Below, piece by piece: positions 6,127-24,220 of a stretch of 24,220 nt of DNA; positions within the stretch are counted from its first letter, which is position 1, and each line of letters starts with the position of its first letter. The stretch spans positions 1 through 24,220 of the IMG/VR virus record IMGVR_UViG_3300032397_001031. One strand, 5' to 3'. Source of the stretch: a virus. The notes under the pieces are model-generated. The model was given only the letters and a program-made list of their open reading frames with translations, did no database searches and was not told the origin of the DNA. Made by a program: the position numbers and the translations under genes.

Positions 6127-6157
6127 CGAGTCGGAGGCTTGACCCCCCGAGTCTCGT
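6126..6157 (+). promoter_or_regulatory. Stop-codon hairpin with two-base bulge
   Basis: ACGAG-TCGG (6126-6134) pairs with CCGA (6147-6150) and CTCGT (6153-6157), leaving a GT bulge on the 3' arm. The helix begins at the last base of the MoxR stop codon. A hairpin of the same shape sits on the stop of the VWA gene (8173-8200). Neither has a clean T-run. Confidence 0.4.
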
Positions 6158-6217
6158 TCTGTATTGTCTCGATCGGCGTCAGAGATGGCGCTAGCAAGCA
6201 AAGAAAGCCAGGAAGCC

Positions 6218-6556
6218 ATGAATACGTCCCCCCGTTCGGAGATCACTCCCGCCACAACCCTCGGCGACCTCGATTCGTTCCTCAGGTCCTACGGGATGCG
6301 AGTCACAGTCTGCGCCACGGGCACGGGGCAGTATCGTTGCAGCGTCCTCGCTCCCTCTCTGGAGGTCGGGACGGGAGTCGGCGACACACTCCCGCAGGCG
6401 ATCGAGTCCGCTCTCAAGTCTGCCGAGATTTGGGCAGTCGAGCAGTCCGTTCTCCCGGCGGTCGACGAGGACGAGGCCGAGCGTCAGGAGATGGCGAGTC
6501 TCACTCGGGCGCGTGTTCGTCGTGCCATCGCAGGCCGACGAGTCTCCGCGATCTAA
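6218..6556 (+). CDS. Small unknown protein between the MoxR and VWA genes
   Basis: The 112-residue protein has a predicted alpha/beta N-terminal half (DLDSFLRSYGMRVTVCATG, then YRCSVLAPSLEVGTGVGDTLPQAI) resembling a small RNase-H-like or dsRBD-like fold, and a charged helical C-terminus rich in Glu and Arg (about 80-112). No family was recognised. ATG 6218 follows the start-associated sequence GAAAGCCAGGAAGCC; the in-frame ATGs further upstream lie in the leader. Its position between the ATPase and the VWA protein suggests it belongs to the same complex, perhaps as an adaptor. That is inference. Confidence 0.75.
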   Translation: MNTSPRSEITPATTLGDLDSFLRSYGMRVTVCATGTGQYRCSVLAPSLEVGTGVGDTLPQAIESALKSAEIWAVEQSVLPAVDEDEAERQEMASLTRARVRRAIAGRRVSAI

Positions 6557-6613
6557 CCCTCCGATGATGGCCCCCGGCGGGGGGCCGAAACGTCGCGAGA
6601 CGTCAGGGACGCA
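6555..6613 (+). promoter_or_regulatory. Type B leader, copy 2: GC hairpin plus GNRA hairpin
   Basis: This is the second copy of the element at 4865-4923, differing at two positions over 59 nt. The GC hairpin lies at 6569-6586. The second hairpin, ACGTC-GCGA-GACGT, lies at 6590-6603. Its loop differs from copy 1 (GCGA against GTGA), but both are GNRA tetraloops. It precedes the VWA gene. Confidence 0.65.
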
Positions 6614-6633
6614 AGCCAGGAAGCCAGGAAGCC
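6613..6633 (+). promoter_or_regulatory. Tandem ribosome-binding unit (two copies)
   Basis: The 8-nt unit AAGCCAGG occurs at 6613-6620 and 6621-6628, followed by AAGCC and ATG 6634. Most neighbouring genes have one copy of this start-associated sequence. The duplicated Shine-Dalgarno-like AGGAAG could raise or tune translation of the VWA gene. Confidence 0.55.
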
Positions 6634-11505: not shown

Positions 11506-12213
11506 ATGACCCGACTCGTTCGCTCTCGTGTGATTCAGGCCCCGTCGACCTCAGTGTCGGCGGAACTCGCCGCTGCTCTGGCGGTCGCGACGACCGCCGC
11601 CCTCAGGGGAGACGACCCCTCGGACGTCCTCCGGGCGCTAGGCGACCGACTGAGGTCGTCCGGGATCGTCCCCGGTCGAACTCCCGGAGACGTGAAACGC
11701 CTCCCGCCGTCGACCTCAGGCGAGTCCCTGTCCGCCGTCCCGACGGTCTCCGAGCCTCCGAGGGAGACTCCTCAGGTCGCCCGAGACGTGGTCTCAGTGT
11801 TCGAGCATTGGAAGGTGGCGACGTCGAGGCCCCTGGCGAAGTTGACGACCGACCGGATCTCCCGAATCCGAGGGAGACTCCGAGAGGGTTATTCTCCCGA
11901 GACTCTGAGGAAGGCGATCGACGGATGCGCCGCCTCGGAGTTCCATTCAGGGACAAACGATCGCAATACGCGATACGACGACATTAGCTTGATTTGCCGG
12001 TCGGGTTCGACCGTCGAGAGGTTCGCCGAGATGTCGGCGAGTTCGTCCGACTACGTGTCCCCCGGTCCGGTCCGACGAACCCCCGAGCAGATTCAGTTCG
12101 ACGACGAGACCCGACGGCTCAAGGCCGAGGCGAAACTGTTACTCAGAGAGGGGAGGACCGAGGAATATGCAAAAGCCATTCAATCCCTGCGCTCACGTTC
12201 CGATGACCGCTGA
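11506..12213 (+). CDS. Probable replication initiator / helicase-loader protein
   Basis: The 235-residue protein has a variable N-terminal half and a C-terminal domain of the kind seen in phage replication proteins: VFEHWKVATSRPLAKLTTDR, RLREGYSPETLRKAIDGCA, SEFHSG and YDDISLICRSGSTVERFAE (about 108-192). That pattern (W..., RL..GYS...L..AI.G, YDDI.LI.R....VE.F) matches DnaD/DnaT-like or phage C-terminal domain proteins that load helicase at the origin. ATG 11506 was chosen because three Shine-Dalgarno units lie directly before it; the open frame begins earlier, inside the tRNA-like element. It lies after Sak4 and SSB, as expected for a replication block. The exact family needs a profile search. 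Confidence 0.72.
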   Translation: MTRLVRSRVIQAPSTSVSAELAAALAVATTAALRGDDPSDVLRALGDRLRSSGIVPGRTPGDVKRLPPSTSGESLSAVPTVSEPPRETPQVARDVVSVFEHWKVATSRPLAKLTTDRISRIRGRLREGYSPETLRKAIDGCAASEFHSGTNDRNTRYDDISLICRSGSTVERFAEMSASSSDYVSPGPVRRTPEQIQFDDETRRLKAEAKLLLREGRTEEYAKAIQSLRSRSDDR

Positions 12214-12826
12214 CGAAACGTCCCGAGCGTGGGCGACTGTCGGGGCTCTCATGTCCCCATACACCCCCGAGGCGCAACGGCACGGCATCGAGCTGAGTCT
12301 CGCCGCCGACGTCCTCGCGAACCTGGAGGATTATACCCGGAAGCCGTCGCCCCCTCGTCCTCTGGAGTTCGAGGACCTCACGACGCAGGCGATCGTTGAT
12401 AAGGTTCGATTCATCGCGGACTCGTCGCGGGCGAGCAAGGACGACGTCGAGTTCGTCCGGGACTTCGCTGAGTGGCGGTATCAGATCCTCTCGGCGGAGT
12501 CTGTGAACTCCGGTCGGGTCGAGGTTCTTATCTGGGCGATTGGGAAGTTGATCCCGTTCGCCTCCGAGTACGCAGAGCAGGCGACAGTCCTCCGACGTCT
12601 CCGCGAGTTCTGTTCGGTCGAGTGGGGTCTCGACCTCCCGTCCGTCCCCTCTCTCCGCGAGGGTCGGGCGATGGCGTATCGGGTCTCCCTCGACCTTGAC
12701 GAGTTGCCGAACTCCCTGCGGTCCCTGCGGGATGTCTCGACGGTCCGGGCAGTCAGTCGTGGCGGGGACCCGTCTCGGGTCGGATGGGCAAGCGAATTTG
12801 AACGAGAGAAAGAAGGCAAGCTATGA
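12167..12826 (+). CDS. Unknown protein of the replication block
   Basis: The 219-residue protein (207 if it starts at ATG 12203) is mainly helical. It contains PLEFEDLTTQAIVDKVRFIAD (two segments, about 66-86) and FAEWRYQILSAESVNSGR. I recognise no family. A GAGGAAT ribosome site supports ATG 12167, with a 47-nt overlap into the upstream gene; ATG 12203 gives a more usual 11-nt overlap but has no site. Translation is probably coupled to the initiator gene. Its C-terminal codons contain the start-associated sequence AAGAAGGCAAGCT of the next gene. Confidence 0.75.
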   Translation: MQKPFNPCAHVPMTADETSRAWATVGALMSPYTPEAQRHGIELSLAADVLANLEDYTRKPSPPRPLEFEDLTTQAIVDKVRFIADSSRASKDDVEFVRDFAEWRYQILSAESVNSGRVEVLIWAIGKLIPFASEYAEQATVLRRLREFCSVEWGLDLPSVPSLREGRAMAYRVSLDLDELPNSLRSLRDVSTVRAVSRGGDPSRVGWASEFEREKEGKL

Positions 12827-13437
12827 GCAAAGAAGGCAAGCAGCGTTTCGACATCCTACTCGGAGAACTGGCGAACACCCTCCGGCTCGGGGAGGGCGAT
12901 CACTTCGAAGTGAAGGGGTCTCGCGAGACTCGGACCGGGGTGCAGTTGAAGTATGAGGTGAGCGCCTTCGGGTCGCAGGCGAGTCTCGCGTTTGGGGAGG
13001 TTACGGGGACGGCCCCGAAGTCTCCAGAGATCGCGATTCTGAACGAGGGGGTGCGTGCCAGTCTGCTTGCTGTTCGCGGATTCCTGACTCCACTCGACCG
13101 AGTCGAGGGCACTCCCCTGGAGGGGTCGATCCTCGTCGACCTCGCCATGGCGTTCGCCATGGGCGCGGTGTTCGAGGCATACGAAAGTGGAGTCGTCGCG
13201 GGCGAAACGGGTCAACGCCGAAAACTGTTCGAGGCGTTCGTCGAGGTCGGTCGACGTTGGGCGACGCAGGCACACCCCTCGAACCGAGGGGCGAACCACT
13301 CGACGCACGAGGTCTATCCCGATCGCTCTGTCATGGTCTCCCGACCGTCGACTGACGATCTCTCGGACCGGGAGGCGGACGAGATCGCACGAGCACTCCG
13401 AGAGGCCGCGGGCGGTCGTTCAGCGGGGGACGCATGA
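12823..13437 (+). CDS. Unknown protein of the replication block
   Basis: The 204-residue protein overlaps the upstream stop as ATGA, with GAAAGAAGGCAAGCT as ribosome site. The first ~70 residues look beta-rich (GDHFEVKGSRETRTGVQLKYEV, in two strands), the middle is helical (LLAVRGFLTPLDRV) and the C-terminus is acidic and Arg-rich. No membrane segment, P-loop or metal motif is seen. The next gene, RusA, overlaps by 4 nt, so it probably belongs to the recombination operon, but its function is unknown. Confidence 0.75.
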   Translation: MSKEGKQRFDILLGELANTLRLGEGDHFEVKGSRETRTGVQLKYEVSAFGSQASLAFGEVTGTAPKSPEIAILNEGVRASLLAVRGFLTPLDRVEGTPLEGSILVDLAMAFAMGAVFEAYESGVVAGETGQRRKLFEAFVEVGRRWATQAHPSNRGANHSTHEVYPDRSVMVSRPSTDDLSDREADEIARALREAAGGRSAGDA

Positions 13438-13973
13438 CCTCGTCGGTCGACCTGAGGTTCGTCGTCCTGGGAGAACCGATCGCCAAGGCCAGGCCGAGGG
13501 CCAGTGCCCGAGGGTCTCGGATATTGATCTACACTCCGAGCGAGACGACACGATACGAGGAAGGGGTTCGGAAGGTCGCGGAGCAGGCCCGAGTCCGGCG
13601 GGCATCCGAAGTCGCCGACCTCTGGCCGATGGACGCTGCGAGCTATTTCGTCTCGATGGCGATATTCACGGGACGTCGCAACCCCGACGCCGACAACGTC
13701 GCGAAGTCGGTCGTTGACGGGATGATCGGCGCTCTGTACTCGAACGACAATCGGGTCGGCTGTTTCTTTCCCCCTCCCTGCCGGGACCTGAATCCCCGCG
13801 TCGAGGTCTCAGTTCGTGCGTTCGTCCATCGCCCATGGCTTGAGGTCGACCGGGTCTGCGTCGAGGGGGACGCCCTCGTCGCTCTCTGTTCTCGGGTCGC
13901 GAGTGCCAAGGGTCCGAGTCGGGCGCTTTTGCTCCGCGAGCTGAGAACTCTAGCCTCGGGGGGTGTGTCGTGA
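13434..13973 (+). CDS. rusA: RusA-family Holliday junction resolvase
   Basis: The 179-residue protein has the RusA pattern: VVLGEPIAKARPRAS near the N-terminus, YTPSETTRYEEGV (about 36-48) and the catalytic stretch NPDADNVAKSVVDGM followed by LYSNDNRV. The acidic residues D85, D87 and D105 match those that bind Mg in RusA, with D95 nearby. The enzyme cuts four-way junctions made during phage recombination, resolving branched DNA before packaging. E. coli RusA has about 120 residues; here the catalytic domain is followed by roughly 50 extra C-terminal residues. Its start overlaps the upstream stop (ATGA) and its stop overlaps the next start (GTGA). Confidence 0.9.
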   Translation: MTSSVDLRFVVLGEPIAKARPRASARGSRILIYTPSETTRYEEGVRKVAEQARVRRASEVADLWPMDAASYFVSMAIFTGRRNPDADNVAKSVVDGMIGALYSNDNRVGCFFPPPCRDLNPRVEVSVRAFVHRPWLEVDRVCVEGDALVALCSRVASAKGPSRALLLRELRTLASGGVS

Positions 13974-14368
13974 GTTTCTTCGCTCGGTTTCGGCGACCTC
14001 CGCCTCCAGCCGAGACCCCGTCGGTCCCCGACGACCTGTCTCCCCCTGAGGGGTTTCGGGCGGGCGTCGAGTCCTACTGCTGGCGGGTGCTCGTCCAGGC
14101 GTATGTGCGCGTGCTCGCTCGTCAGCAGGGTCGGGAATGGTCGACGATCTCCGACCGGGAGGCTCACGCGATGCTCGAACCCTATCATCGGGATCTCGAC
14201 CGGGACGTTCGAGCATTGGGAGTCGCCATCGATCAAGCTCGGGCCGAGGGAATGTCCCGGATGCGGGACGCAGTCCATCGTGCCCCCGGTCTCGATCGGG
14301 AGATGGTTGACGAGGCGATTCAATTCGGATTCTCTCAGTCCGAGCAAAAGAAAGAAGGCAAGCGATGA
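13970..14368 (+). CDS. Unknown small helical protein
   Basis: The 132-residue protein starts with GTG in a GTGA overlap with rusA. A Pro-rich N-terminus (RRPPPPAETPS) precedes a helical body with WRVLVQAYVRVLARQQG (about 39-55) and many Arg/Glu residues. Its last codons contain the ribosome site of the following mini-ORF (AAAGAAAGAAGGCAAGCG). No family was recognised and no enzymatic motif is visible. Confidence 0.7.
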   Translation: MSFFARFRRPPPPAETPSVPDDLSPPEGFRAGVESYCWRVLVQAYVRVLARQQGREWSTISDREAHAMLEPYHRDLDRDVRALGVAIDQARAEGMSRMRDAVHRAPGLDREMVDEAIQFGFSQSEQKKEGKR

Positions 14369-14412
14369 AACGACTCGACCCGACCTCTGTTCACGCTCCG
14401 GGTGAAGAATGA
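14365..14412 (+). CDS. 15-codon ORF coupled to neighbours on both sides
   Basis: ATG 14365 overlaps the upstream stop as ATGA and is preceded by a full start-associated sequence, GAAAGAAGGCAAGCG. The frame reads MKRLDPTSVHAPGEE and stops at 14412. Its TGA overlaps the ATG of the next gene at 14409. It may be a leader peptide that hands ribosomes to that gene, or a start-site relic. The good ribosome site and double overlap are the only support. Confidence 0.45.
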   Translation: MKRLDPTSVHAPGEE

Positions 14413-14687
14413 TCAGCCGACTCCCGAGCGGGGATGCGCTGCGGATTGACCTAATCGATCGTATCTCGTTTCGCGAGACGATCACCAACGAGGATGCGTT
14501 CCGAGCGTCCATTCGGTTCGACCTGCTTTCCAACTCTCACACGGCTCGCATCCCGCCAGAGAAGGCGCTGGTGTGCGATGTCCTCTGGCGCGACGGCAAG
14601 GTCGAGGCTTTCATGGGCAAGGACGCCGAAGCGTTCAAGAAGTGGGTCGACTCCCTGCCGCTGCTCGGCGAAGGGAGCAGCGTATGA
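14409..14687 (+). CDS. Unknown 92-residue protein
   Basis: The protein looks alpha/beta (LRIDLIDRISF, then ASIRFDLLSNSH and VCDVLWRDGKVEAFMG) and could be a small one-domain protein. There are no cysteine clusters or membrane segments. Its start overlaps the preceding mini-ORF and its stop overlaps the next start (ATGA). I recognise no family. Gene density and coding style fit the short-gene block of the phage. Confidence 0.68.
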   Translation: MISRLPSGDALRIDLIDRISFRETITNEDAFRASIRFDLLSNSHTARIPPEKALVCDVLWRDGKVEAFMGKDAEAFKKWVDSLPLLGEGSSV

Positions 14688-14992
14688 CCCTCGACGAACT
14701 CCGAGCCCTGCTGAGTCCTGACCGGCTCGACGAGATAGCAGCCCACAACTGCGGAGCCTCCGAGGTCGCTCTGGGGCTCGCCTCCGCGTTGGTCGACGCC
14801 CTGATTGAGTGCGACACCCTCCGCGCCGGAGTCGAGCGGCTCACTGCTGAGCGGGACGCGGCCGACAACATCGTTCGTGCCGTCCATGCGTGGCTGATAT
14901 CAGATCCGGTCGACGACGTGCGATCGGTGCTCGCGTTTGCCGATTTAGAGACGGCAGTGACTGCGTACCTGGACGCCAAAGGAGGCGAGTGA
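14684..14992 (+). CDS. Unknown 102-residue helical protein
   Basis: The acidic protein has predicted helices throughout, with a likely coiled coil at about 45-65 (CDTLRAGVERLTAERDAAD). It overlaps the upstream gene (ATGA) and shares one base with the start of the broken PAPS-reductase-like gene (TGATG). Phage proteins of this type often lie in early operons; no function can be proposed. Confidence 0.7.
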   Translation: MTLDELRALLSPDRLDEIAAHNCGASEVALGLASALVDALIECDTLRAGVERLTAERDAADNIVRAVHAWLISDPVDDVRSVLAFADLETAVTAYLDAKGGE

Positions 14993-15159
14993 TGGACCTG
15001 GAGGCAATACGCAAAAGACTCGTCGTCGCCAACGTCTCAGGGGGCAAGGACTCCACGGCACTGTCTCTCCACTTGACCGAACTCGGGTCGAGCACCGGAG
15101 AGTGTTCGCAGATACCGGGGCTCTGCGACACTCCGGGACCTGAGAGGTTGGAGGGGTGA
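14992..15159 (+). pseudogene. Broken PAPS-reductase-like gene (frameshift plus internal deletion)
   Basis: The 55-codon frame starts MDLEAIRKRLVVANVSGGKDSTALSLHL, a clear N-terminus of the PAPS reductase/ATP pyrophosphatase family with its SGGKDS P-loop (residues 17-22). After T-E-L-G the frame loses similarity, but the -1 frame from there reads VEHRRVFADTG, exactly the next expected family motif, before ending at a TGA. One G is therefore probably missing from the GGG at 15085-15087. Full-length members have some 200-300 residues, so most of the domain is also absent. The original frame still ends in the GTGA overlap typical of this genome, so the true C-terminus may have been kept around an internal deletion. 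Sequencing error could explain the frameshift but not the missing body. Confidence 0.75.
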
Positions 15160-15761
15160 TTTACTACGTCAGCGCGACCGGAACGAAACGGAACCTCGCC
15201 GTGATTCGTTCTTATGGTTTTCGGCTGATGGTCTCAGCTCGGGGGAACCTGCGCCCGTGCGGGATTCGGTACGCTCTTGATAATGGGGCATGGACCTCGC
15301 ACACGAGGTCGGAACCGTTCGATGCTAGGGCGTTCGAGCGAGCGGTCGACCGTCTCGGGGCGGACGCTGATTTCGTTGTCTGTCCCGACGTCGTCGGGGA
15401 CGCGGTCGCGACCCTGAGGTCGATCGAGACGTGGTTGCCTGTCCTGTCTGCTCTCCCTGTCGTTCTGCTCGCTGCTCAGGATGGGATGGTCCCGGCGGAC
15501 CTGAGGGCATACCTCGGTCCTCGCGTGGGGGTGTTCGTCGGCGGGTCGACTCAGTACAAGGAAGGTTGCCTGCGTGAGTGGGGCGAGGCGTGTCGGGAGT
15601 TCGGGTCGTGGTTCCATGTCGGTCGGGTGAACACTCGGAGGCGGATTCGCCTGTGCAGTGAGGCGGGGGCGACGAGCGCCGACGGGAGCAGCGTCACTCG
15701 GTTTGCTGTCACGGGTTCGCTGTTAGATCGGGCAGTCAGGCAAGGCGGTTTTGTATGGTGA
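15156..15761 (+). CDS. Compact DpdA-like DNA-guanine transglycosylase (TGT fold)
   Basis: The 201-residue protein has the order of motifs expected for the tRNA-guanine transglycosylase/DpdA TIM barrel: ALDNGAW (D42), FVVCPDVVGD (D78, D82), LLAAQDGM, VGVFVGGSTQYKE (GG at 129-130) and FHVGRVNTRRR leading to ATSADGSS (D176). By comparison with TGT, D42 would be the base-binding or general-base Asp and D176 the nucleophile; this assignment is inferred from motif order. It lacks the zinc-binding tail of tRNA enzymes, as do phage DpdA proteins. It starts with GTG overlapping the broken gene (ribosome site GGAGGG) and overlaps the MT-A70 gene. A second, longer DpdA lies at 18691. Exchange of guanine for a 7-deazaguanine in DNA is the likely reaction. 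Confidence 0.72.
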   Translation: MIYYVSATGTKRNLAVIRSYGFRLMVSARGNLRPCGIRYALDNGAWTSHTRSEPFDARAFERAVDRLGADADFVVCPDVVGDAVATLRSIETWLPVLSALPVVLLAAQDGMVPADLRAYLGPRVGVFVGGSTQYKEGCLREWGEACREFGSWFHVGRVNTRRRIRLCSEAGATSADGSSVTRFAVTGSLLDRAVRQGGFVW

Positions 15762-16318
15762 CAGAACGCGGGTCGGAGTTTCGATGCATCGTGGCTGACC
15801 CCCCGTGGGCGGAGTCCGGGGGAGGGAGGATCAAGCGGGGCGCGGACCGGCACTATCCTCTCCTGAGTGTTTGCGAGATCGAGGCTGTGATGCTGTCGGC
15901 TCTCGACGGTGTCGTCGCCGACGATTGCCACTTGTACCTATGGGTAACGAACTCATTCCTGCCGAGCGGTCTCCAGGTCATGCAGTCGGTCGGGTTCCGA
16001 TACGTCACGAATGTCGCTTGGCTGAAGCCTCGAATCGGTCTCGGCCAGTATTTCAGGGGTCAGCATGAACTCTGTCTGTTCGGGGTCCGGGGGAGCGGGT
16101 TCGCTGTTCGGACTCCGACTCGGAGTCTCCCCTCCGTCGTGGTCTCGGACCATCGGAGGAACTCGGACGGGTCGCGGATTCACTCGGGCAAGCCCGAGGC
16201 GTTCTATCGTTTGGCGGAGGCTAGGTCGGTTGGGCCGCGTCTCGAACTGTTCGCCCGACGTCGTCGGGACGGCTGGACCACTGTCGGGAATGACCCGACT
16301 CTAAAAGCGGGAGAGTGA
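15755..16318 (+). CDS. MT-A70-family adenine methyltransferase
   Basis: The 187-residue protein has the catalytic DPPW (15-18) following FRCIVA, then a TSP-like region with LYLWVTNSFL, VTNVAWLKP and a C-terminal RLELFARRRRDGWTTVGND. These are diagnostic of the MT-A70 clade, which transfers methyl from S-adenosylmethionine to N6 of adenine; phage members act on DNA. Length is near the minimum for the family, without an extra target-recognition domain. It overlaps the upstream DpdA-like gene by 7 nt, so the two are co-translated. This suggests that base replacement and methylation are deployed together, perhaps against restriction. Confidence 0.9.
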   Translation: MVTERGSEFRCIVADPPWAESGGGRIKRGADRHYPLLSVCEIEAVMLSALDGVVADDCHLYLWVTNSFLPSGLQVMQSVGFRYVTNVAWLKPRIGLGQYFRGQHELCLFGVRGSGFAVRTPTRSLPSVVVSDHRRNSDGSRIHSGKPEAFYRLAEARSVGPRLELFARRRRDGWTTVGNDPTLKAGE

Positions 16319-16320
16319 GC

Positions 16321-16512
16321 ATGGAGAAGCCTCGGATTGCACTGGAGAACTTGACAGACGAGCAGAGGGTGATCGCTCTGCGGTATCTGGCGCTGAATCG
16401 ACACGACAAGCGTCGTGTGAAAGCTCTCGCCGTGAAACGTCGTCGTGCTGAGATCAAAGCGGCGAAGGCGAAGGCGGCGAAGGTTCGCCGCCCCTCTCCG
16501 GGGGAGGGGTGA
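16321..16512 (+). CDS. Small basic Lys/Ala/Arg-rich protein
   Basis: The 63-residue protein has a short helical N-terminus (LENLTDEQRVIALRYLALNR) and a strongly basic C-terminal half (DKRRVKALAVKRRRAEIKAA and more). It probably binds nucleic acid. GGGAGA about 7 nt upstream supports ATG 16321; the alternative GTG 16315 would give the usual GTGA overlap with the methyltransferase gene. No family was recognised. Confidence 0.65.
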   Translation: MEKPRIALENLTDEQRVIALRYLALNRHDKRRVKALAVKRRRAEIKAAKAKAAKVRRPSPGEG

Positions 16513-17081
16513 TGCCGAAGAATCTGGCGACGGGGGAACTCGTCAGCTTTGCGGTCAGTGGCGGGGGGATGCGTCGCGGGCTGTTGGTTCGTCTCGACGG
16601 TTCCGACGCTACGATTCAGACGATCGACGGGGAGCGAATGGTAATCGACGCCGACCTGATTCGGGGGCGTGGGGGTGCCGCGGGCAAGGGCAAGCGGGTC
16701 TCTGTTCGGGCGGTCCCTCGGGCGGTCCCTGAGGTCGTCGAGTCGGTCGTCGAGCTAGACGAGGACGTGCCCTCTCGTCGGGCGTTCAGGCCCCAGCCGA
16801 AGCCGTTGCCCCCGTCGAGGTCTCGGCGATATCTCGACTACGTCCGAGGGCTGCCGTGCTGTTCGTGCGGGCACCCGAGCCCGTCCGACCCGCATCACTT
16901 CGGCCCCCGTGGTCTCGGTCAGAAAACGGACGACACCCGGACGGTGCCTCTCTGTCGTGCTTGCCATGACACGTTTCATCGGGGCGGGTCTCTCCCCGGT
17001 CAGGACAAGCTCTCGACAAGGCTCTACATTCTGCAGAAGCAGGTCGACTTGCTCGTTCAGTTTGTTCGACGTGAGCCCTGA
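16512..17081 (+). CDS. HNH/DUF968-like zinc-binding nuclease candidate
   Basis: In this 189-residue protein the N-terminal part is a small beta-rich domain (GELVSFAVSGGGMRRGLLVR, about 6-25). A basic linker follows, then a C-terminal domain (about 105-165) with CCSCGH, PSDPHHFG, KTDD and VPLCRACHDTFHRGG. The pattern C-x2-C...D-P-H-H...C-x2-C-H...H is that of HNH-like phage proteins such as DUF968, in which cysteines bind zinc and histidines cut or bind DNA. It starts at ATG 16512 sharing one base with the upstream stop; GTG 16509 is the alternative. Recombination or DNA nicking is a likely role. A 54-nt gap follows, the longest within this gene-dense stretch, and a TATGGT there could be a promoter element. 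Confidence 0.78.
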   Translation: MPKNLATGELVSFAVSGGGMRRGLLVRLDGSDATIQTIDGERMVIDADLIRGRGGAAGKGKRVSVRAVPRAVPEVVESVVELDEDVPSRRAFRPQPKPLPPSRSRRYLDYVRGLPCCSCGHPSPSDPHHFGPRGLGQKTDDTRTVPLCRACHDTFHRGGSLPGQDKLSTRLYILQKQVDLLVQFVRREP

Positions 17082-17135
17082 GGGTCGTGCTATGGTCTCG
17101 GGGTGAGCATGTGAGACTCGAAAGCGCGGTGCGGC

Positions 17136-17483
17136 ATGTCGACTGAATCCCCTCAGGACTGGAATGGTGCTCTCGATGCGCTTGAGCGTCGATGCGCTCA
17201 CCTTGCGAGTCTCGTGTTCCCGGAGCCGGGGACTCGTCCGCATCGGTCGGCGCACTGGAGGGACGAGGTCGAGCTGAAGGCTTTGCGCCTTGCGTCTCGG
17301 GCGGTTCGGGAGTCCAGGGACCGGGCGGGCGGGGGGAGTAACGGGGCTCTGCTGGAGAACTTGGCGGCGGCTGTCGACTTGTTCGAGACCCTGTCAGTCG
17401 CGGACTCTCTGACTCCCTCGGTTCGGCAGTCCATCCTGTCGATGATTGAACGGCTCGATGCTGTGATCGACGGTGCCGAGTGA
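17136..17483 (+). CDS. Unknown 115-residue helical protein
   Basis: The protein is mainly helical, with WNGALDALERRCAHLASLVF (about 9-28) and a C-terminal hydrophobic/acidic helix. No ribosome site of quality precedes ATG 17136. It overlaps the next short gene as GTGA. No domain was recognised. It is the first gene after the small gap that precedes the queuosine-type operon and may be its first cistron. Confidence 0.65.
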   Translation: MSTESPQDWNGALDALERRCAHLASLVFPEPGTRPHRSAHWRDEVELKALRLASRAVRESRDRAGGGSNGALLENLAAAVDLFETLSVADSLTPSVRQSILSMIERLDAVIDGAE

Positions 17484-17644
17484 GGAAGTTCGTCGTCGAA
17501 TGGGTTGATGCGAGAACGGGTTCGCTCGGTTCGTCGCAGCCTCTCGACCTCGATGTCGCCGAGGGGCACGCGAAGATCCTGAGGACTCTCGGGCACACGG
17601 CGTCGGTCGTCCCTGTCGAGGATAAGAAGGGGGGACGGCGATGA
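17480..17644 (+). CDS. Short unknown protein before queD
   Basis: This 54-residue frame begins with GTG in a GTGA overlap with the upstream gene and ends in an ATGA overlap with queD. It reads (M)RKFVVEWVDARTG and has a basic C-terminus (EDKKGGRR). The two overlaps and the phage-like codon use support a real gene. A small beta-alpha domain is likely; no function can be assigned. Confidence 0.6.
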   Translation: MRKFVVEWVDARTGSLGSSQPLDLDVAEGHAKILRTLGHTASVVPVEDKKGGRR

Positions 17645-18084
17645 CCTGTCCGAGAGTGACTGCGACTCGGCGGCTTGAGTGGGACTCGGCGCATCGAGTG
17701 CTCCGGCATGAGTCCAAGTGCTCGACGCTTCACGGGCACCGATACGCTGCGGAGTTGACGTGCGAGGCTCCCGAGTTGGACGTCGTCGGGCGTGTGATCG
17801 ACTTCGGAGTCGTGAAGCAGATCGTCGGCGGCTGGATTGATGCGAATTGGGATCACACGACTCTCGTGAATTGGGAGGATCGCCGTCTCTGGGAGTTCGT
17901 GAGCGGCGAGTCTCTCGTGTATGGGAAGCGGAGCCCGTTCCCGTTCAAGTGTGAGCCGACCGCGGAGAACATCGCGATCCATCTGCTCGGAACGTCGAAC
18001 GCGCTCCTCGCCGAGTTTGGGATCTCGGTCGTCCGCGTTCGTGTGTATGAGACCCCGAACTGCTACGCGGAGGCCCGCCCATGA
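17641..18084 (+). CDS. queD: QueD, 6-carboxytetrahydropterin synthase
   Basis: The 147-residue protein has the PTPS/QueD fold signature: SAHRVLRHESKCSTLHGHRY with zinc ligands H18, H31 and H33 and catalytic C27, then GRVIDFGVVK, NWDHTTLVN, EPTAENIA and VRVYETPNCYAE. QueD converts 7,8-dihydroneopterin triphosphate, the product of FolE, into 6-carboxy-5,6,7,8-tetrahydropterin, the second step to preQ0. The C-x3-HGH form is that of QueD rather than mammalian PTPS. It opens the 7-deazaguanine operon and overlaps the next gene by 4 nt. The enzyme is cytoplasmic. Confidence 0.93.
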   Translation: MTCPRVTATRRLEWDSAHRVLRHESKCSTLHGHRYAAELTCEAPELDVVGRVIDFGVVKQIVGGWIDANWDHTTLVNWEDRRLWEFVSGESLVYGKRSPFPFKCEPTAENIAIHLLGTSNALLAEFGISVVRVRVYETPNCYAEARP

Positions 18085-18698
18085 CTGTCCGAGTTCACCC
18101 TGCCCTTGAGCCTCTGTCGGTCCCGATCGAGACCCTCGTCGCTGACCCTCGGAACGCGAGGGCACACGGCAAGCGGTCCATCGAGGGGATCGTCGCGTCG
18201 TATCGGGAACACGGGCAGCTAAAGCCGATCGTCGCGACCCGGTCCGACCGAGTCGTTCGAGCGGGCAACGGTCAGCTCGCGGCGGCGAAGTCCCTGGGCT
18301 GGACGAGCATCGCGGTCGTGTTCGTCGACGGGGACGAGAGGTCGGCAATCCGGTTCGCGTTGCAGGACAATCGGACCGCGGAGCTTTCTGATTGGGACTT
18401 CGACGGGCTCGCCTCCGTCCTCCAGGGGCTCGACGCGTCCGCCGACGGTGTCCTCGGTCTCGGATGGAGCCCGGACGAGCTGGCACCATTCCTAGAGGGG
18501 ATGTTCGACCCGGCTGCGGTCGCCGCCTCGCACGACATCGGCGTCGGGTCGGAGTTCGGCGCTCAGTCTCGACGGACGGCTATATTCAACGTCGAGCAGT
18601 GGAAGATCCTCGAACCGAAACTCGACCCCGCGGTGCTAAAGAAGTCCGGGCTCGGCTCGGCGATCGTCGATGCTGTGGAGCGTCTCTCCCGTGACTGA
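18081..18698 (+). CDS. ParB-like protein paired with dpdA
   Basis: The 205-residue protein begins with a ParB/sulfiredoxin-type nuclease domain: VPIETLVADPRNARAHGKRS, HGQLKPIVATR and VVRAGNGQLAAAKSLGWTSI (about residues 15-75). A helical C-terminal part follows (about 100-205) with no recognised domain. It overlaps dpdA by 8 nt, so both are translated together. In bacterial dpd clusters a ParB-superfamily protein, DpdB, is needed with DpdA for insertion of preQ0 into DNA; this protein could have the equivalent role. It is shorter than DpdB and homology beyond the ParB domain was not tested. A plain phage ParB-like nuclease or partition-type regulator is the alternative. Confidence 0.82.
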   Translation: MTVRVHPALEPLSVPIETLVADPRNARAHGKRSIEGIVASYREHGQLKPIVATRSDRVVRAGNGQLAAAKSLGWTSIAVVFVDGDERSAIRFALQDNRTAELSDWDFDGLASVLQGLDASADGVLGLGWSPDELAPFLEGMFDPAAVAASHDIGVGSEFGAQSRRTAIFNVEQWKILEPKLDPAVLKKSGLGSAIVDAVERLSRD

Positions 18699-19461
18699 CG
18701 TTTACATCGCCGTGAGCGCCGACCGGAACGGCATCCTCGCGTCCTGGGATTGGGATTCGATGCCTCTGTGCGTCCTCGTCTCGTATTACTACCTGCAGAG
18801 CGCCGAGCAGGGCGTTCTCAAGTTCATCCGACCCGAGAAACTGATGCTCGACTCGGGGGCGTTCTCGGCTTTCCAGAAAGGGGAATCGATCGACATCGAC
18901 GCCCTAATCGCCGAGGTCCGGGAGCCGAGATGGACTGAGGCCGTCGGTCTCGATGTTATCGGGGACTCCGAGGGGAGTCGTCGGAACCTGACCTATATGC
19001 GCGAGCACGGGGCGTTGAAAGCGATGCCCGTGTTTCATATCGGGGAACCCCTCGAACTGCTCGACTACTACTGCGAACACTGGCCGAAGGTCGGGCTGTC
19101 CTGTCGGTTCGGGGAGTCGATGCCTCAGTCGCTCGCGTTCTATGCGTCGTGCTTTGCTCGTCAGTGGCCGCACAAGTTCCATTCGTTCGGATGGTCGGGC
19201 GAAACGATGTTGATGCGGTTCCCGTTCCATTCGGCAGACTCGACCTCATGGGTCGCGGGTATCTTTGCCTGGGCTCAGATGCCGATCTCGAACAAGTCCC
19301 TGCGGACCCGCGACCTCCCTGGGCACGGACGCCCGACGAAAGCCGCCCTAACGTCCGCCAGTCGGATCTATCTGGAGTCAACATGGAACGTGCAGACGAA
19401 ACTCCGGGCGAGATGGCGACGGGAGATGGCGCTCCTAGAATCTCAGGGGGTGACCCCGTGA
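18691..19461 (+). CDS. dpdA: DpdA, phage DNA-guanine transglycosylase
   Basis: This 256-residue protein follows the TGT/DpdA barrel order: LMLDSGAFSAF (D54), AVGLDVIGD (D88, D92), MPVFHIGEP, KVGLSCRF, FHSFGWSG and FPFHSADSTSW (D183), with a basic C-terminus. D54 and D183 sit where TGT has its general base and nucleophile. It lacks the tRNA-enzyme zinc site, as in phage DpdA. The reaction would swap guanine in DNA for preQ0 or preQ1 by cleaving the glycosidic bond and re-forming it. I chose GTG 18691 because it gives the 8-nt overlap with the ParB-like gene and has GGAG upstream. QueF follows with a 4-nt overlap. A shorter relative lies at 15156. Confidence 0.85.
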   Translation: MTDVYIAVSADRNGILASWDWDSMPLCVLVSYYYLQSAEQGVLKFIRPEKLMLDSGAFSAFQKGESIDIDALIAEVREPRWTEAVGLDVIGDSEGSRRNLTYMREHGALKAMPVFHIGEPLELLDYYCEHWPKVGLSCRFGESMPQSLAFYASCFARQWPHKFHSFGWSGETMLMRFPFHSADSTSWVAGIFAWAQMPISNKSLRTRDLPGHGRPTKAALTSASRIYLESTWNVQTKLRARWRREMALLESQGVTP

Positions 19462-19853
19462 CGTCTCCCCTGTACCTCGGGCAGTCCATCTCAAAGCCGA
19501 TCCCCTCGACCGCTCTCGACGTCGTCCCCTGGGCAGGGTCCCCGACCGCGGTCGTCCGGTTCGAGTGCGCCGAGTTCACGTCACACTGTCCAGTCACGGG
19601 GCAGCCCGACTTCGCCTCCCTGTCGATCGAGTACGGTCCTCGGTCGGTCCTCGTCGAGACCAAGTCTCTCAAGCTCTACCTCTGGAGCTATCGGACCGCT
19701 CACGCTTTCAACGAGGTGATAATCGACGAGATCGCAGCGTCTCTGTTTCGAGTCCTCTCGCCTCGGTTCGTCGAGGTTCGAGGCCACTTCCACGCGCGGG
19801 GCGGCATATCGGTTCACCCGACCGTTCGGCTCGGGGGGAACTCCGATGCTTGA
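19458..19853 (+). CDS. queF: QueF, NADPH-dependent preQ0 reductase
   Basis: The 131-residue protein has the unimodular QueF signature: FECAEFTSHCPVTGQPDFAS with catalytic C44 and D51, then the NADPH motif ETKSLKLY (67-74), WSYR, and GHFHARGGISVHP near the end. QueF reduces the nitrile of preQ0 to the amine of preQ1. The intact NADPH motif argues for a reductase rather than a QueF-like amidotransferase. Bacillus subtilis QueF has His-Glu after the NADPH motif; here the pair is N85-E86, so the His is replaced by Asn. The GTG start overlaps dpdA, with AGGGGG as ribosome site. Its presence points to preQ1 as the base inserted into phage DNA. Confidence 0.9.
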   Translation: MTSPLYLGQSISKPIPSTALDVVPWAGSPTAVVRFECAEFTSHCPVTGQPDFASLSIEYGPRSVLVETKSLKLYLWSYRTAHAFNEVIIDEIAASLFRVLSPRFVEVRGHFHARGGISVHPTVRLGGNSDA

Positions 19854-19873
19854 TCTCGAATGGAGGCGGAGCG

Positions 19874-20557
19874 ATGGCATATAGAATCGTCGACGTGTTC
19901 GTGACTCTCCAGGGTGAGGGCTTCCATGCCGGGACCCCGGCGATATTCGTGCGGTTCTCGGGGTGCAACCTCTGGACTGGCAGGGTCGAGGACCGGCAGC
20001 GGGACTTCACTCGGACCGGGGGTGCGTGCGCTCTGTTCTGCGACACTGATTTCGCGACCGGATTCCGCTGCGATGTCGAGGGGATTGTGGCTCGGATTCA
20101 GTACCTCAGGAAGCGGGCGGGGGGCATGGTCGGTCTCGTCGTGTTCACGGGCGGGGAGCCGATGCTGCAGCTTGATCTCGGTCTCCTGAGGGCGCTCAGG
20201 CAGTCGGTCGGGCCTCGGGTGACGTTTGCGGTCGAGACGAACGGGACGGTCGAGGCGTCGGCTGAACTCCTGAGCGAGATCGATTGGATCTGCTGCTCCC
20301 CTAAGACTCCGGCGGAGCGGGTTGTAATCGGTCGGATTGACGAGTTGAAAGTCGTCGTGCCTGCGATGAGCCCGGCGGCGTTCGAGGGCCTCCCCGCCGA
20401 GCATTGGTTCGTCCAGCCGGAGGCGGCTCCCGACCTGGACACTCCGGGCGGCGGGGCGATTATCCCGGCCTCAGTCGCGGCGGCTGTTGATTACTGCCTC
20501 GCGCATCCTCTGTGGCGACTGTCGCTACAGACGCACAAAACGATCGGACTGCCATGA
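19874..20557 (+). CDS. queE: QueE, 7-carboxy-7-deazaguanine synthase (radical SAM)
   Basis: The 227-residue protein has LQGEGFHAGTPAIFVRFSGC at the N-terminus, a cluster region with C31, C52 and C56 in GCNLW...CALFCDTDF, and VVFTGGEPMLQ for SAM binding. QueE converts 6-carboxytetrahydropterin into 7-carboxy-7-deazaguanine with SAM and Mg. The cluster spacing is C-x20-C-x3-C. The classic form is C-x3-C-x2-C, and E. coli-type enzymes have C-x14-C-x2-C, so this one is unusual. ATG 19874 follows GGAGGCGGAGCG, a good ribosome site. The stop overlaps folE (ATGA). Confidence 0.9.
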   Translation: MAYRIVDVFVTLQGEGFHAGTPAIFVRFSGCNLWTGRVEDRQRDFTRTGGACALFCDTDFATGFRCDVEGIVARIQYLRKRAGGMVGLVVFTGGEPMLQLDLGLLRALRQSVGPRVTFAVETNGTVEASAELLSEIDWICCSPKTPAERVVIGRIDELKVVVPAMSPAAFEGLPAEHWFVQPEAAPDLDTPGGGAIIPASVAAAVDYCLAHPLWRLSLQTHKTIGLP

Positions 20558-21114
20558 CTCACGAGGGATTGCTCGCCGAGGGGCTTCTGCGGTCGATTCT
20601 AGGGGACGAGGTCGCGGACTCGGTTCTAGGTCGGGAGGGGATGGCGTCGACCCCTGAGAGGATGGCGAAGGCGTTGCGCGAGCTGACGTCGGGCTATGGG
20701 GTCGACGTGAGTCGGCTGCTGACGACGTTCCCGGCGGACGGGGCAGACGAGGCGATCGTGATTCGTGACGTCCCGTTTTCTAGTCTTTGCGAGCATCACA
20801 TTCTCCCGTTCCGGGGAGTGGTGTCGGTCGCGTACCTCCCGACGGACCGAATCGTCGGACTCTCGAAAGTCCCTCGGATAATCCGGGCGCTGTCTCGACG
20901 GCTCCAGGTTCAGGAGAGGTTGACGATGCAGATCGCAGACGCTCTGGAGCCGTTGAAGCCTCGCGGAGTGGCGGTGCTCGTCCGGGGAGTTCACGAGTGT
21001 GCCGAACTCCGGGGTGTGGAGACTCGGGCGGAGATGGTGACGAGTGTCATGCGTGGGGCGTTCAAGGATGACGCTCGGGCTCGGGCCGAGGTACTCGCGC
21101 TGTTCCGAAGCTAG
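20554..21114 (+). CDS. folE: FolE, GTP cyclohydrolase I
   Basis: The 186-residue protein carries the type I signature: TPERMAKAL, SSLCEHHILPF with zinc ligands C79 and H82, VGLSKVPRI, RRLQVQERLTMQIADAL and GVHECAELRGVE with the third ligand C149. It opens GTP to 7,8-dihydroneopterin triphosphate, the first step of 7-deazaguanine synthesis and also of folate synthesis. Here it sits between queE and queC, so the queuosine-type role is clear. The usual Met after the last Cys ligand is Ala, a minor change. Start ATG 20554 overlaps the queE stop. Confidence 0.94.
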   Translation: MTHEGLLAEGLLRSILGDEVADSVLGREGMASTPERMAKALRELTSGYGVDVSRLLTTFPADGADEAIVIRDVPFSSLCEHHILPFRGVVSVAYLPTDRIVGLSKVPRIIRALSRRLQVQERLTMQIADALEPLKPRGVAVLVRGVHECAELRGVETRAEMVTSVMRGAFKDDARARAEVLALFRS

Positions 21115-21127
21115 AAAGGTGGGAAAC

Positions 21128-21808
21128 ATGAGAAGCATCGCAGCGGTTGTCATATTCTCGGGGGGTCAGGACTCGACGACGGTTCTGTTCGACGCGATCG
21201 AGCGGCATGGTCGTGACAACGTCGTGGCCTTGACGTTCGACTACGGTCAGCGGCACCGGAGTGAGGTTGCGGCGTCGAGGGAGATTGCCGGTCTCGCGGG
21301 GGTCGAGCATGTCGTCGTCGAGTTGAAAGCCCTCGGGGACCTCGCCATATCTGCTCAGACGTCGAACGCCATCGAGGTCGCCCCGACGGGGGGTCTCCAT
21401 GACCTCCCGACGACGTTCACCCCCTCGCGGAACCTTGTATTTGCGACCTTGGCATCGAGTTACGCAATCAGCCGGGGGTGCTCGACCCTGTATCTCGGAG
21501 TCTGTCAGACTGACTTTTCGGGCTATCCCGACTGTCGAAAGGAGACGATCGACGCCCTCGAACGGGTGATCAAGCTCGGGAACGGGCTCGACTCGTTCGA
21601 CATCGAGACTCCCCTCATGTGGCTAACCAAGTGGGAGACCGTCTGCCTTGCTCAGCGTCTCGGCCCCGTGTGCATGTCAGCTCTGGCGCTGACTGTGACC
21701 TGCTACCACGGGCTGCGACCTGGCTGCGGGGAGTGTCCGGCGTGTCAGATTCGGGCGCGAGGGTTTGCCGAGGCGAGGGTCGACGACCCCGCGGCGGTGT
21801 CCCCATGA
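21128..21808 (+). CDS. queC: QueC, preQ0 synthase
   Basis: The 226-residue protein has the ATP-pyrophosphatase P-loop IFSGGQDST (SGGQDS 11-16), ALTFDYGQRH, TFTPSRNLVF, and a C-terminal zinc site of four cysteines (C192, C200, C203, C206 in GCGECPACQ). QueC uses ATP and ammonia to convert 7-carboxy-7-deazaguanine into preQ0 (7-cyano-7-deazaguanine). ATG 21128 has AAGGTGG upstream; earlier in-frame starts lie within folE. The stop overlaps the next ParB-like gene (ATGA). With FolE, QueD and QueE, the window holds the whole route from GTP to preQ0. Confidence 0.95.
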   Translation: MRSIAAVVIFSGGQDSTTVLFDAIERHGRDNVVALTFDYGQRHRSEVAASREIAGLAGVEHVVVELKALGDLAISAQTSNAIEVAPTGGLHDLPTTFTPSRNLVFATLASSYAISRGCSTLYLGVCQTDFSGYPDCRKETIDALERVIKLGNGLDSFDIETPLMWLTKWETVCLAQRLGPVCMSALALTVTCYHGLRPGCGECPACQIRARGFAEARVDDPAAVSP

Positions 21809-22428
21809 CCCCGAAGCGAGGCAAAACGTCCTGGGCTCCGGTCGGGTCTCTGAGAGCGAACCCATGGAACCCGAACGTGATGACCCCGTTCATGGTCGAG
21901 CGGGCGTGCGAGTCGATTCGGCAGTTCGGGTTCGTCGACCCTGTCCTCGTCCGGGACGTCCCCGGAACGAGAGGGCATGAAATAATCGACGGGGAGCAGC
22001 GATGGCGAGCGGCTCAGTCCGTGGGGCTCGACCGGGTGCTCGTCCTGAGCCTCGGGGAGATCGACGACCATGTCGCGAAGCGGCTGACGATCGTCCTGAA
22101 CGAGACTCGGGGCAAGTTCGACCGGGATGGCTTGGCGGACCTCGTCCGGGACCTCCTGTCGGTCGAGGACGAGTCTGTGCGTGCGGAGGTTCTGTCGGTC
22201 CTCCCGTATTCGAGCGGGGAGATTGATGCTCTCCTGAGGGACCCTCCTGCTCCGACGGCTGATGAGATCGTGAGTTTTGTTGCGGGGGTGACGTTCAAGG
22301 TCCGGGCGACCTCGGAGCAGGTCGCAGTGATATCTCGGGCGATTGCGGACGTCCGAGCCTCTGGGGATGCTCTGTCGGACGGGAGTGCCCTCGAACGGAT
22401 ATGCGCTGATTACCTGTCCGGGCGCTAG
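21805..22428 (+). CDS. Second ParB-like protein, after queC
   Basis: The 207-residue protein has a ParB N-terminal domain: VGSLRANPWNPNVM, FGFVDPVLVRDV, HEIIDGEQRWRAAQSVGLDR (about 12-77), then a helical region and a C-terminal domain without recognised motif. The DGEQR box is a normal ParB variant. It overlaps queC by 4 nt, so it is part of the 7-deazaguanine operon. It might direct the modification to certain sites, act with one of the two DpdA proteins, or serve in packaging, as phage ParB-like proteins often lie next to terminase. Which of these holds cannot be read from the sequence. Confidence 0.82.
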   Translation: MTPKRGKTSWAPVGSLRANPWNPNVMTPFMVERACESIRQFGFVDPVLVRDVPGTRGHEIIDGEQRWRAAQSVGLDRVLVLSLGEIDDHVAKRLTIVLNETRGKFDRDGLADLVRDLLSVEDESVRAEVLSVLPYSSGEIDALLRDPPAPTADEIVSFVAGVTFKVRATSEQVAVISRAIADVRASGDALSDGSALERICADYLSGR

Positions 22429-22455
22429 AGTGAGACGACACGAAAGCAGGCAGAC

Positions 22456-22950
22456 ATGGCGAAACAAGTCAAAAGAAGCCCTCCGAAGGTAAAGAAGTCG
22501 AAGGCGTCTCGTCAGGAGTTCGTCGAGCAGATGGACTTTGTCGAATCGTTGATGGTCCGTCGGCTGTCCGAGCGCCAGATATTCAAGCTGCTCGCGGACC
22601 GTTACGGGATGGGGGAGCGCCAGGGCTACCGATACCTGACGGCGGTCCGGGAGCGTTGGGCTCAGGAGGCGAACGACATGGGTCGGTCGGCTCGCCGGGA
22701 CCACTTGAGGAAGTCCATCGAGGATCTCTACGTGCGGGCGTTGGCGACCTCAGTGACTAAGCCCGACCCGGACGTTCGGGCGGCGACTCGGGCGGCGAAG
22801 TTATTGATCGAGATCGACGCGGTCATGGCGGACCCCCCGAAGCAGGGGATCGAGCTGACCGGGACGGTCGGGGTCGCGACGACGACGGTGTCGGCCTCGA
22901 CTCGGGCAGGGCTAGAGGCTTGGCTGATGGGGTCGTCCCCTCGGGCATGA
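22456..22950 (+). CDS. Probable terminase small subunit
   Basis: This 164-residue protein has a basic N-terminus (AKQVKRSPPKVKKSKASRQE), a helix-turn-helix-like segment (LSERQIFKLLADRYGMGERQ, about 39-58), more helices to residue 125 and a beta/Thr-rich C-terminus. That layout is usual for small terminase subunits, which bind the packaging site and guide the large subunit. It lies directly upstream of the large-subunit gene with a 4-nt overlap, the usual order. The start-associated sequence CGAAAGCAGGCAGAC precedes ATG 22456. Sequence identity to a named family was not recognised, so the call rests on position and layout. Confidence 0.72.
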   Translation: MAKQVKRSPPKVKKSKASRQEFVEQMDFVESLMVRRLSERQIFKLLADRYGMGERQGYRYLTAVRERWAQEANDMGRSARRDHLRKSIEDLYVRALATSVTKPDPDVRAATRAAKLLIEIDAVMADPPKQGIELTGTVGVATTTVSASTRAGLEAWLMGSSPRA

Positions 22951-24220
22951 CCTACTCTCCCCCGGTCGGGTTCGTCTCTAAAGTCCTGGGGCCGTCTGCC
23001 TTGTCTGCTCTCTGTTCGATGCTGACCCCGCAGACGAGTCTCCCGAGGTTCGTTCCGGGCACTGACCTGTCCGGTCTCTCCGACGAGCAGGTCGAGGTCC
23101 TGGCGTTCGTCCTGAGGGAGTTGCAAGTCGCCGAGGCGAGACGAAACGCGGCGGCGTTCGTCGAGTACGCGATCGCGAACGAACGGACCGGAGAACCTCT
23201 CTCGAACGCGGCGCACCATAACGAGTGGCACGAGTTCCTCGACCGGCATCCGAGGGCGGTTCTGTTCGCGCCGGTCGAGCACGCGAAAACGACACACGTC
23301 GCGGTCGGTCGTGTCCTCTGGGCTCTCGGGAATAATCCGAACCTCCGGCTCGCGTTGATCTCGAATACCTCTCGCCAGGCTGAAAAGATTCTCAGCTCGA
23401 TCAAGCTGAACATCGAGGCGAACCCCCGTGTGCGGGAGGTGTTCCCGGACCTCGTCCCCTCCGACCGGGCCGCGGACCCCTGGCACGGGTCGGCGATCAC
23501 TGTCGCCCGGTCGACCATCGCGAAAGATCCGTCGATTCAGGCTCTCGGCGTCGGGGGTCCCCTCGTCGGGTCTCGACTCGATGGTGCCGTGCTCGACGAC
23601 GTCCTCGATTTCGAGAACACCCGAACCATCGAGCAGATGCAGAAGTTGACCGAGTGGTGCGAGACGACTCTGCTCACCCGATTGACCGAGGGGGCGTTTC
23701 TCCATGTAATCGGAACCCCATGGTCGAACCTCGACCTGCTGCACGAACTGGAGAAACGTCCGGGGTTCGCGTGCCGGAGGTATTCGGCGGTCTACAACCC
23801 GCACGACCCCTCCGACCTCTGGCGTCCGATTTGGCCTGAGCAGTTCTCACGGGAGCGGCTGAAGTCGATCCATGACGACATGACTCCGAGTAATTTCGTC
23901 CGCAAATACTTTTGCCTCGTCACGACGAACGACCTCGCCCGGTTCAGGCTCGAATGGCTCGACCTCGCAGCCACTCTCGGGAGGGTTTACGTCTCCTGGC
24001 CTCTGGCCCCACTCAGGACCGGGGCAGGTCGGAGGCTCCCGACGTTCACGGGGGTCGACCTCGCCGTCGGACGTAACGCGAAGTCGGACCTCACGGTTAT
24101 CCTCACGATTGCGGTCGACGACTCGGGGAGGAAGATCGTCTGCGACCTCCAGGCGGGTCGATGGCAAGCCCCCGACATCCTCGCCAAGATCAAAGCCGCG
24201 CATGACCGCTACGACTCGAC
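22947..24220 (+). CDS. terL: Terminase large subunit (3' end cut by window)
   Basis: 424 codons are visible; the gene continues past the window end. An N-terminal helical part precedes the ATPase: the P-loop-like AVLFAPVEHAKTTHV (K114), of the PxxHAK-type seen in large terminases rather than classic GxxxxGK, then RLALISNTSRQAEKIL, Walker B AVLDDVL (D217, D218), a coupling motif VIGTPWS, and the start of the RNase-H-like nuclease at FTGVDLAVGRNAKSD (D371). It cuts concatemeric DNA and drives it into the prohead with ATP. Structural genes are expected downstream. The start overlaps the small-subunit stop (ATGA). Confidence 0.93.
   Translation, partial: MTYSPPVGFVSKVLGPSALSALCSMLTPQTSLPRFVPGTDLSGLSDEQVEVLAFVLRELQVAEARRNAAAFVEYAIANERTGEPLSNAAHHNEWHEFLDRHPRAVLFAPVEHAKTTHVAVGRVLWALGNNPNLRLALISNTSRQAEKILSSIKLNIEANPRVREVFPDLVPSDRAADPWHGSAITVARSTIAKDPSIQALGVGGPLVGSRLDGAVLDDVLDFENTRTIEQMQKLTEWCETTLLTRLTEGAFLHVIGTPWSNLDLLHELEKRPGFACRRYSAVYNPHDPSDLWRPIWPEQFSRERLKSIHDDMTPSNFVRKYFCLVTTNDLARFRLEWLDLAATLGRVYVSWPLAPLRTGAGRRLPTFTGVDLAVGRNAKSDLTVILTIAVDDSGRKIVCDLQAGRWQAPDILAKIKAAHDRYDS

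Follow-up and report, generated by a model that had tools for sequence, protein, structure and literature searches.

A probable dPreQ1 operon and its gene products

We analyzed the virus record IMGVR_UViG_3300032397_001031 from IMG/VR over its entire length of 24,220 bases (hereafter the window), which is probably a genome fragment. Seven genes lie head to tail on the plus strand between positions 17641 and 21808, in the order QueD, ParB-like, DpdA, QueF, QueE, FolE and QueC. Most of these neighbors overlap and the gaps between the others measure about 20 bases at most. An initial annotation had proposed that six enzymes encoded here, in a tight operon and with their key residues visible, make the 7-deazaguanines 7-cyano-7-deazaguanine (preQ0) and then 7-aminomethyl-7-deazaguanine (preQ1), and that the latter enters phage DNA as the deoxynucleoside dPreQ1. 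All six enzymes were indeed found at this position with family matches far beyond chance, and the profile searches that had been suggested for each protein matched the operon families in Pfam, PHROG or NCBIfam. The inventory had nevertheless missed a ParB-like gene within the operon (18081-18698) and a second one behind it (21805-22428), as well as a further transglycosylase-like gene upstream, here called TGT2 (15156-15761). All functional statements made in the following are drawn from sequence data, predicted structures and relatives described in the literature.

The four enzymes needed for preQ0 are readily recognizable. FolE (GTP cyclohydrolase I, 186 residues, 20554-21114; Pfam GTP_cyclohydroI 4.9e-57) scored 186.5 bits with NF006825, above the curated cut-off of 174, and QueC (preQ0 synthase, 226 residues, 21128-21808; Pfam QueC 6.3e-65) scored 207.5 bits with TIGR00364, above the cut-off of 150.3. 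This QueC has the canonical motifs SGGxDS, YxQxHxxE and YPDC, TPSRN in place of VPxRN, and a visible C-terminal cysteine-rich zinc motif. QueD (6-carboxytetrahydropterin synthase, 147 residues, 17641-18084) matched Pfam PTPS (4.7e-29) and PHROG 2389, QueD-like (1.5e-34), and its catalytic motifs CSTLHGH, WDH and YETP are visible. QueE (7-carboxy-7-deazaguanine synthase, a radical S-adenosylmethionine protein of 227 residues, 19874-20557) found its best match in TIGR04508 (9.1e-53). Its cysteines follow the pattern CX20CX3C in place of CX14CX2C or CX3CX2C; the window QueE does not stand alone in this, as the same CX3C ending was found in the related viral loci L022 and L083.

QueF (19458-19853, 131 residues, GTG start) is a predicted unimodular preQ0 reductase. 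It scored 112.2 bits with TIGR03139 (QueF-II equivalog), above the cut-off of 86.9, and 1.7e-25 with Pfam. The catalytic Cys44, Asp51 and the substrate residue Glu86 are present, and so is the NADPH motif ETKSLKLY to which the initial annotation had pointed; it fits the consensus E(S/L)K(S/A)hK(L/Y)(Y/F/W) except for one conservative Ser-to-Thr change. If this protein were instead an amidotransferase, or inactive, the phage DNA would contain deoxyarchaeosine (dG+) or dPreQ0 rather than dPreQ1. This alternative draws on two facts, namely that QueF and QueF-like proteins are hard to tell apart from similarity alone (PMC6884629), and that the FHE histidine of Bacillus subtilis QueF, in the active site, is an asparagine (FNE) in the window QueF, as also in the viral locus L008. 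Several further QueFs from phages carry Cys or Gln at this site, so that the histidine does not seem to define the phage members, and the change weakens the dPreQ1 prediction without breaking it. The comparison with QueF-like proteins that the initial annotation had called for came out on the reductase side: the window QueF scored 90.1 bits (E 1.2e-24) against B. subtilis QueF (4f8b) and 22.5 bits (E 0.001) against an archaeal QueF-like amidotransferase (5jyx). By sequence, it thus groups with the bacterial nitrile reductases and not with the QueF-like amidotransferases. Moreover, the motif residues, Cys44 and Asp51 are intact, and the phage QueFs tested to date (Dp-1 and HVTV-1) yielded dPreQ1. 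We therefore consider an amidotransferase or inactive QueF unlikely, and dPreQ1, given how much nearer the window QueF is to the reductases, the best prediction for the phage DNA.

DpdA (18691-19461, 256 residues, GTG start), the DNA-guanine transglycosylase, had no match in Pfam or NCBIfam, and matched PHROG 887, labelled 'queuine tRNA-ribosyltransferase', at 1.1e-38. Residues D54, D88, H116, H164 and D183, including the catalytic Asp pair D54/D183, are invariant in an alignment of 14 phage DpdAs. For the AlphaFold model (predicted local distance difference test score, pLDDT, 81.6), the best structural alignments were to tRNA-guanine transglycosylases (Z 17.3, root-mean-square deviation (rmsd) 3.5, 240 residues). 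A scan of viral contigs with the single DpdA sequence returned no relative. A DpdA profile made without Dp-1 retrieved the DpdA of this Streptococcus phage at 1.6e-30, and the two DpdAs thus belong to one family.

The ParB-like protein encoded between QueD and DpdA (18081-18698, 205 residues; PHROG 620, ParB-like, 1.8e-27) is a possible DpdB-type partner of DpdA. A ParB gene adjoins dpdA, or is near it, in the phages Sonali, Mufasa8, Funsized and phi38:2 and in L008. Bacterial DpdB is reported to be a ParB-like ATPase and a partner of DpdA (PMC12839542), which it is said to accompany generally (PMC6392294), and by analogy the neighbor of DpdA in the window fits DpdB. Such a partner is not always needed, because the Dp-1 operon shows none and the DpdA of phage 9g put preQ0 into DNA in Escherichia coli without one.

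Proposed pathway and known relatives

Taken together, the gene identities and the catalytic residues of the operon enzymes are in place for the following route. FolE, QueD, QueE and QueC would convert GTP to preQ0, and QueF would turn preQ0 into preQ1 by reducing its nitrile to an aminomethyl group. The next step would fall to DpdA, probably assisted by the adjacent ParB-like protein in the way that DpdB assists bacterial DpdA: it would take out guanine by way of a covalent Asp intermediate and insert the deazapurine, leaving dPreQ1 in the phage's own DNA, where it would shield the genome against host restriction. The order of reactions, the inserted base, the role of the ParB-like protein and the benefit against restriction are inferred from Dp-1, from phage CAjan, in which modification requires DpdA (PMC6884629), and from the bacterial Dpd systems. 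As to the order, the authors of PMC6884629 leave undecided whether the substrate of QueF is the free base or the base within DNA.

A different use of the same genes would be to raise the level of queuosine in host tRNA during infection, with no modification of phage DNA. PreQ1 is the usual substrate of the bacterial tRNA-guanine transglycosylase, and a role in tRNA queuosine has been proposed for phages that lack DpdA (PMC6884629). Here, however, DpdA lies within the operon and overlaps QueF by 4 bases, and in a published test the 9g DpdA failed to replace E. coli Tgt, which makes this use very unlikely.

Several observations count against the proposed route to dPreQ1, in addition to the two properties of QueF discussed above. 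Unlike FolE, QueC and QueF, which exceed their curated cut-offs, QueD (67.1 bits against a strict equivalog cut-off of 89.25) and QueE (179.2 bits against 240 for TIGR04508) fall below theirs, yet both are strong family matches with visible motifs. The identities of DpdA to its relatives are low (18-43%), and a plain Foldseek search placed other TIM barrels ahead of the transglycosylases for its model. Finally, the prediction concerns an uncultured phage. Weighing all this, we put the probability that the operon makes preQ1, which DpdA puts in the place of guanine in the phage DNA, with dPreQ1 protecting against restriction, at roughly 75%, a figure that does not extend to TGT2.

The initial annotation had implied that such an operon is new, and in this respect it did not hold. 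Streptococcus phage Dp-1 (HQ268735) has the enzymes of the window in one operon (queF-queC-queD-queE-folE-queT-dpdA), and its product was reported in 2019: by mass spectrometry its DNA contains 3389 dPreQ1 per million nucleotides, about 1.7% of the Gs, and no dG+ (PMC6884629). The Dp-1 QueF is 40% identical to that of the window over the aligned columns, which together with the QueF scores backs the prediction of preQ1 and, via DpdA, of dPreQ1. Dp-1 differs in having queT, in the absence of an annotated ParB-like gene from the operon, and in the absence of any match to TGT2 in its genome. Phage HVTV-1 likewise has a QueF, and dPreQ1 amounts to about 30% of its Gs by mass spectrometry (PMC6884629). 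Phages do often stop at preQ0 or resort to amidotransferases, as the initial annotation said, but it left out the known dPreQ1 phages.

The same gene set is also present in cultured phages. Arthrobacter phage Mufasa8 and Mycobacterium phage Funsized carry QueF, DpdA, a ParB-like gene, QueC, QueD, QueE and FolE together, and the operon of Funsized lies near the terminase, as it does in the window. They differ from the window in gene order and in having a QueE with the ordinary CX3CX2C pattern; TGT2 has no match in Mufasa8, and its one match in Funsized is weak and falls on the DpdA. L008 resembles these two phages in keeping QueF, DpdA, ParB and the preQ0 genes together. The bacterial Dpd systems (DpdA, DpdB, DpdC) share the TGT-type DpdA and its ParB-like partner (PMC12839542). 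The phage, by contrast, brings along preQ0 genes and a QueF of its own, and no DpdC was identified; moreover, bacterial Dpd is a defence island, whereas the phage operon would protect its own genome. With its gene set and predicted product already published and the same set present in cultured phages, the main operon is therefore not of a new kind.

TGT2, a second transglycosylase-like protein

The gene for TGT2 (15156-15761, plus strand) lies about 2 kb upstream of the operon and encodes 201 residues. It matches PHROG 15826, labelled 'unknown function' (1.9e-43). No Pfam family covers it, and Pfam TGT was touched by just one of 65 TGT2 members (E 0.01). Because the TGT2 profile matched no PDB sequence, structures were compared. 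The AlphaFold model (pLDDT 93.9, predicted template-modelling score 0.91) had tRNA-guanine transglycosylases as its best matches among solved structures (Z 16.1, rmsd 2.8, 196 of 201 residues aligned). TGT2 shares with these enzymes the fold and the catalytic-type motifs LDNGAW, PDV, QDG, GGSTxxK and SxDG. It differs in its length (201 against about 370 residues), in its identity of 12-14%, and in lacking the CxCxxC...H zinc site and the C-terminal part.

Residues D42, D78, Q108, G129-G130, H154 and D176 are invariant in TGT2 and belong to motifs that resemble the ones in TGT and DpdA, with D42/D176 as the catalytic Asp pair. A profile-to-profile comparison of TGT2 with DpdA gave E 7.5e-6 over 171 columns and paired D42 with D54, D78 with D88, H154 with H164 and D176 with D183. 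Ordinary profile searches, on the other hand, linked neither family to the other (TGT2 scored 8.3 bits, E 3.2, on the DpdA sequence profile), and the conserved H116 of DpdA has no counterpart in TGT2, which has the invariant Gln108 near that place. We infer that TGT2 represents a compact family of transglycosylases, separate from DpdA, that probably catalyses this type of base exchange as well; the base or the target sites may differ. It may already fall within the DpdA2 subfamily or within DpdA3 and DpdA4 (defined in 10.1093/nar/gkad657), though the genomes of Vibrio phage VH7D, Campylobacter phage CJLB-14 and the halovirus HVTV-1 contained no match to the TGT2 profile.

We then compared 80 viral TGT2 loci with 79 control loci of about equal total DNA, for which a methyltransferase of the window had served as query in an identical procedure. 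The TGT2 relatives were fetched with patterns from query stretches, so that the sample of 80 loci is not random, and loci that are related do not count as independent. A QueC homologue was present in 29 of the 80 TGT2 loci and in 1 of the 79 controls (Fisher p 3e-9), and QueD in 13/80 and 0/79, respectively (Fisher p 1e-4). All of the linked queC and queD genes are on the same strand as TGT2, and most lie within 100 bases of it. Among whole records, QueC above the cut-off was found in 16 of 50 with TGT2 and in 1 of 50 controls. In L022 the order is queC-TGT2-queD-queE and no separate DpdA was found in the record, which leaves TGT2 as the only candidate writer there. In L057 (736-1947) a single open frame runs through TGT2 into QueD, possibly encoding a fusion protein, and in L083 the genes for TGT2, FolE, QueC, DpdA, ParB, QueD and QueE stand in a row. 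The TGT2 frame of L083 is broken at about 9257-9280, close to a repeat of the dinucleotide CT; either a sequencing error or a slippage switch could account for the break.

Many of the QueCs linked to TGT2 have the histidine of YxQxHxxE replaced (YGQPAxxE, YxHPAxxE and similar), while the SGGxDS, RN, xDC and zinc motifs are kept. They occur in L012, L016, L024, L040, L056, L061, L071, L084 and others, mostly just downstream of TGT2, and may yield another product, such as 7-amido-7-deazaguanine (ADG). A Cap9-type QueC beside TGT2 was rejected by motif, as these variants keep the canonical spacing of YxQxHxxE while replacing the histidine.

The association is far from universal, and this counts against a simple link of TGT2 to the pathway. 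None of these que genes was within reach of TGT2 in 39 of the 80 phage loci, nor was any que gene nearby in the 42 bacterial-genome loci (42/42), and QueC is missing from the cultured carriers Erythrobacter phage R6L, ReqiPine5, Aoka and Majeke. In both bacterial-genome loci that were examined (n = 2), the TGT2 relative was near integrases. Together with the appearance of Cap10 (9ntn) among the lower Foldseek matches of TGT2, these gaps suggest that TGT2 may stand outside the pathway, combining a TGT fold with other chemistry, for example protein deazaguanylation as by Cap9/Cap10 of the type IV cyclic-oligonucleotide-based anti-phage signalling system (CBASS), or tRNA exchange. On the other side, queC or queD is beside TGT2 far more often than in the controls, TGT2 lies between queC and queD-queE in L022 where no separate DpdA was found, and the catalytic Asp pair is conserved. 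Moreover, carriers without que genes may draw preQ0 from their hosts. Majeke is a real difficulty for this last idea, because Mycobacterium hosts are reported to lack the preQ0 pathway (PMC6884629). All in all, a role outside the pathway is a serious possibility, which we nonetheless rate at rather less than even odds.

DpdA and TGT2 occur together in the window, Sonali, L083 and L080, the last of which also has QueF; in Sonali no QueF is annotated. It is tempting to regard TGT2 as an undescribed phage family of DNA-guanine transglycosylases of about 200 residues, often encoded next to QueC or QueD and mostly unaccompanied by DpdA, and to suppose that phages with both enzymes write two 7-deazaguanine marks or write in two sequence contexts. 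This proposal is tentative and to our minds somewhat doubtful, and two bases or two contexts as the reason for the pair are a guess. Two such genes per phage are not unique, as Megan also has two DpdA-like genes, both of the DpdA type. In this cultured Microbacterium phage (L224, 670-2543) the two genes stand in tandem.

Directly upstream of TGT2 lies the remnant of a PP-loop gene (PAPS-reductase-like, 14993-15159, plus strand), whose frame is lost near 15090: SGGKDSTALSLHLTEL is read in one frame and carried on as VEHRRVFADTG in another, followed by a stop. A PAPS-reductase gene adjoins TGT2 in ReqiPine5, and one is nearby in R6L.

Further features of the window and implications

Directly 3' of QueC lies the second ParB-like gene (21805-22428, plus strand, 207 residues; Pfam ParB_N 7e-13, PHROG 723 3.4e-27), followed by a terminase gene. 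A nearest-DNA search of GenBank phages with positions 12000-24220 gave no match, and neither a tRNA gene nor any Rfam family, the preQ1 riboswitch included, was found in the window. Several GAAAGCCAGGAAGCCATGA-like copies stand at gene starts between 2745 and 11509 and are perhaps a repeated translation-start cassette; GGAAGCCATGA with at most one mismatch has 8 matches in this region against 0.35 expected. A GC-rich repeat of 59 bases occurs at 4865 and 6555, and at positions 4945-8175 an ATPase gene precedes a large gene whose family is uncharacterised (PHROG 19600, PHROG 24053).

The operon lengthens the short list of dPreQ1 phages by one probable member, and it supports the combination of QueF and DpdA as a recurrent route for a positively charged base in phage DNA. 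If TGT2 is a DNA transglycosylase, many phages that are now read as unmodified, or as carrying only a stray queC or queD gene, would become candidates for 7-deazaguanine DNA. Base exchange in DNA could also gain a small tool in an enzyme of 200 residues built on a TGT-like barrel.

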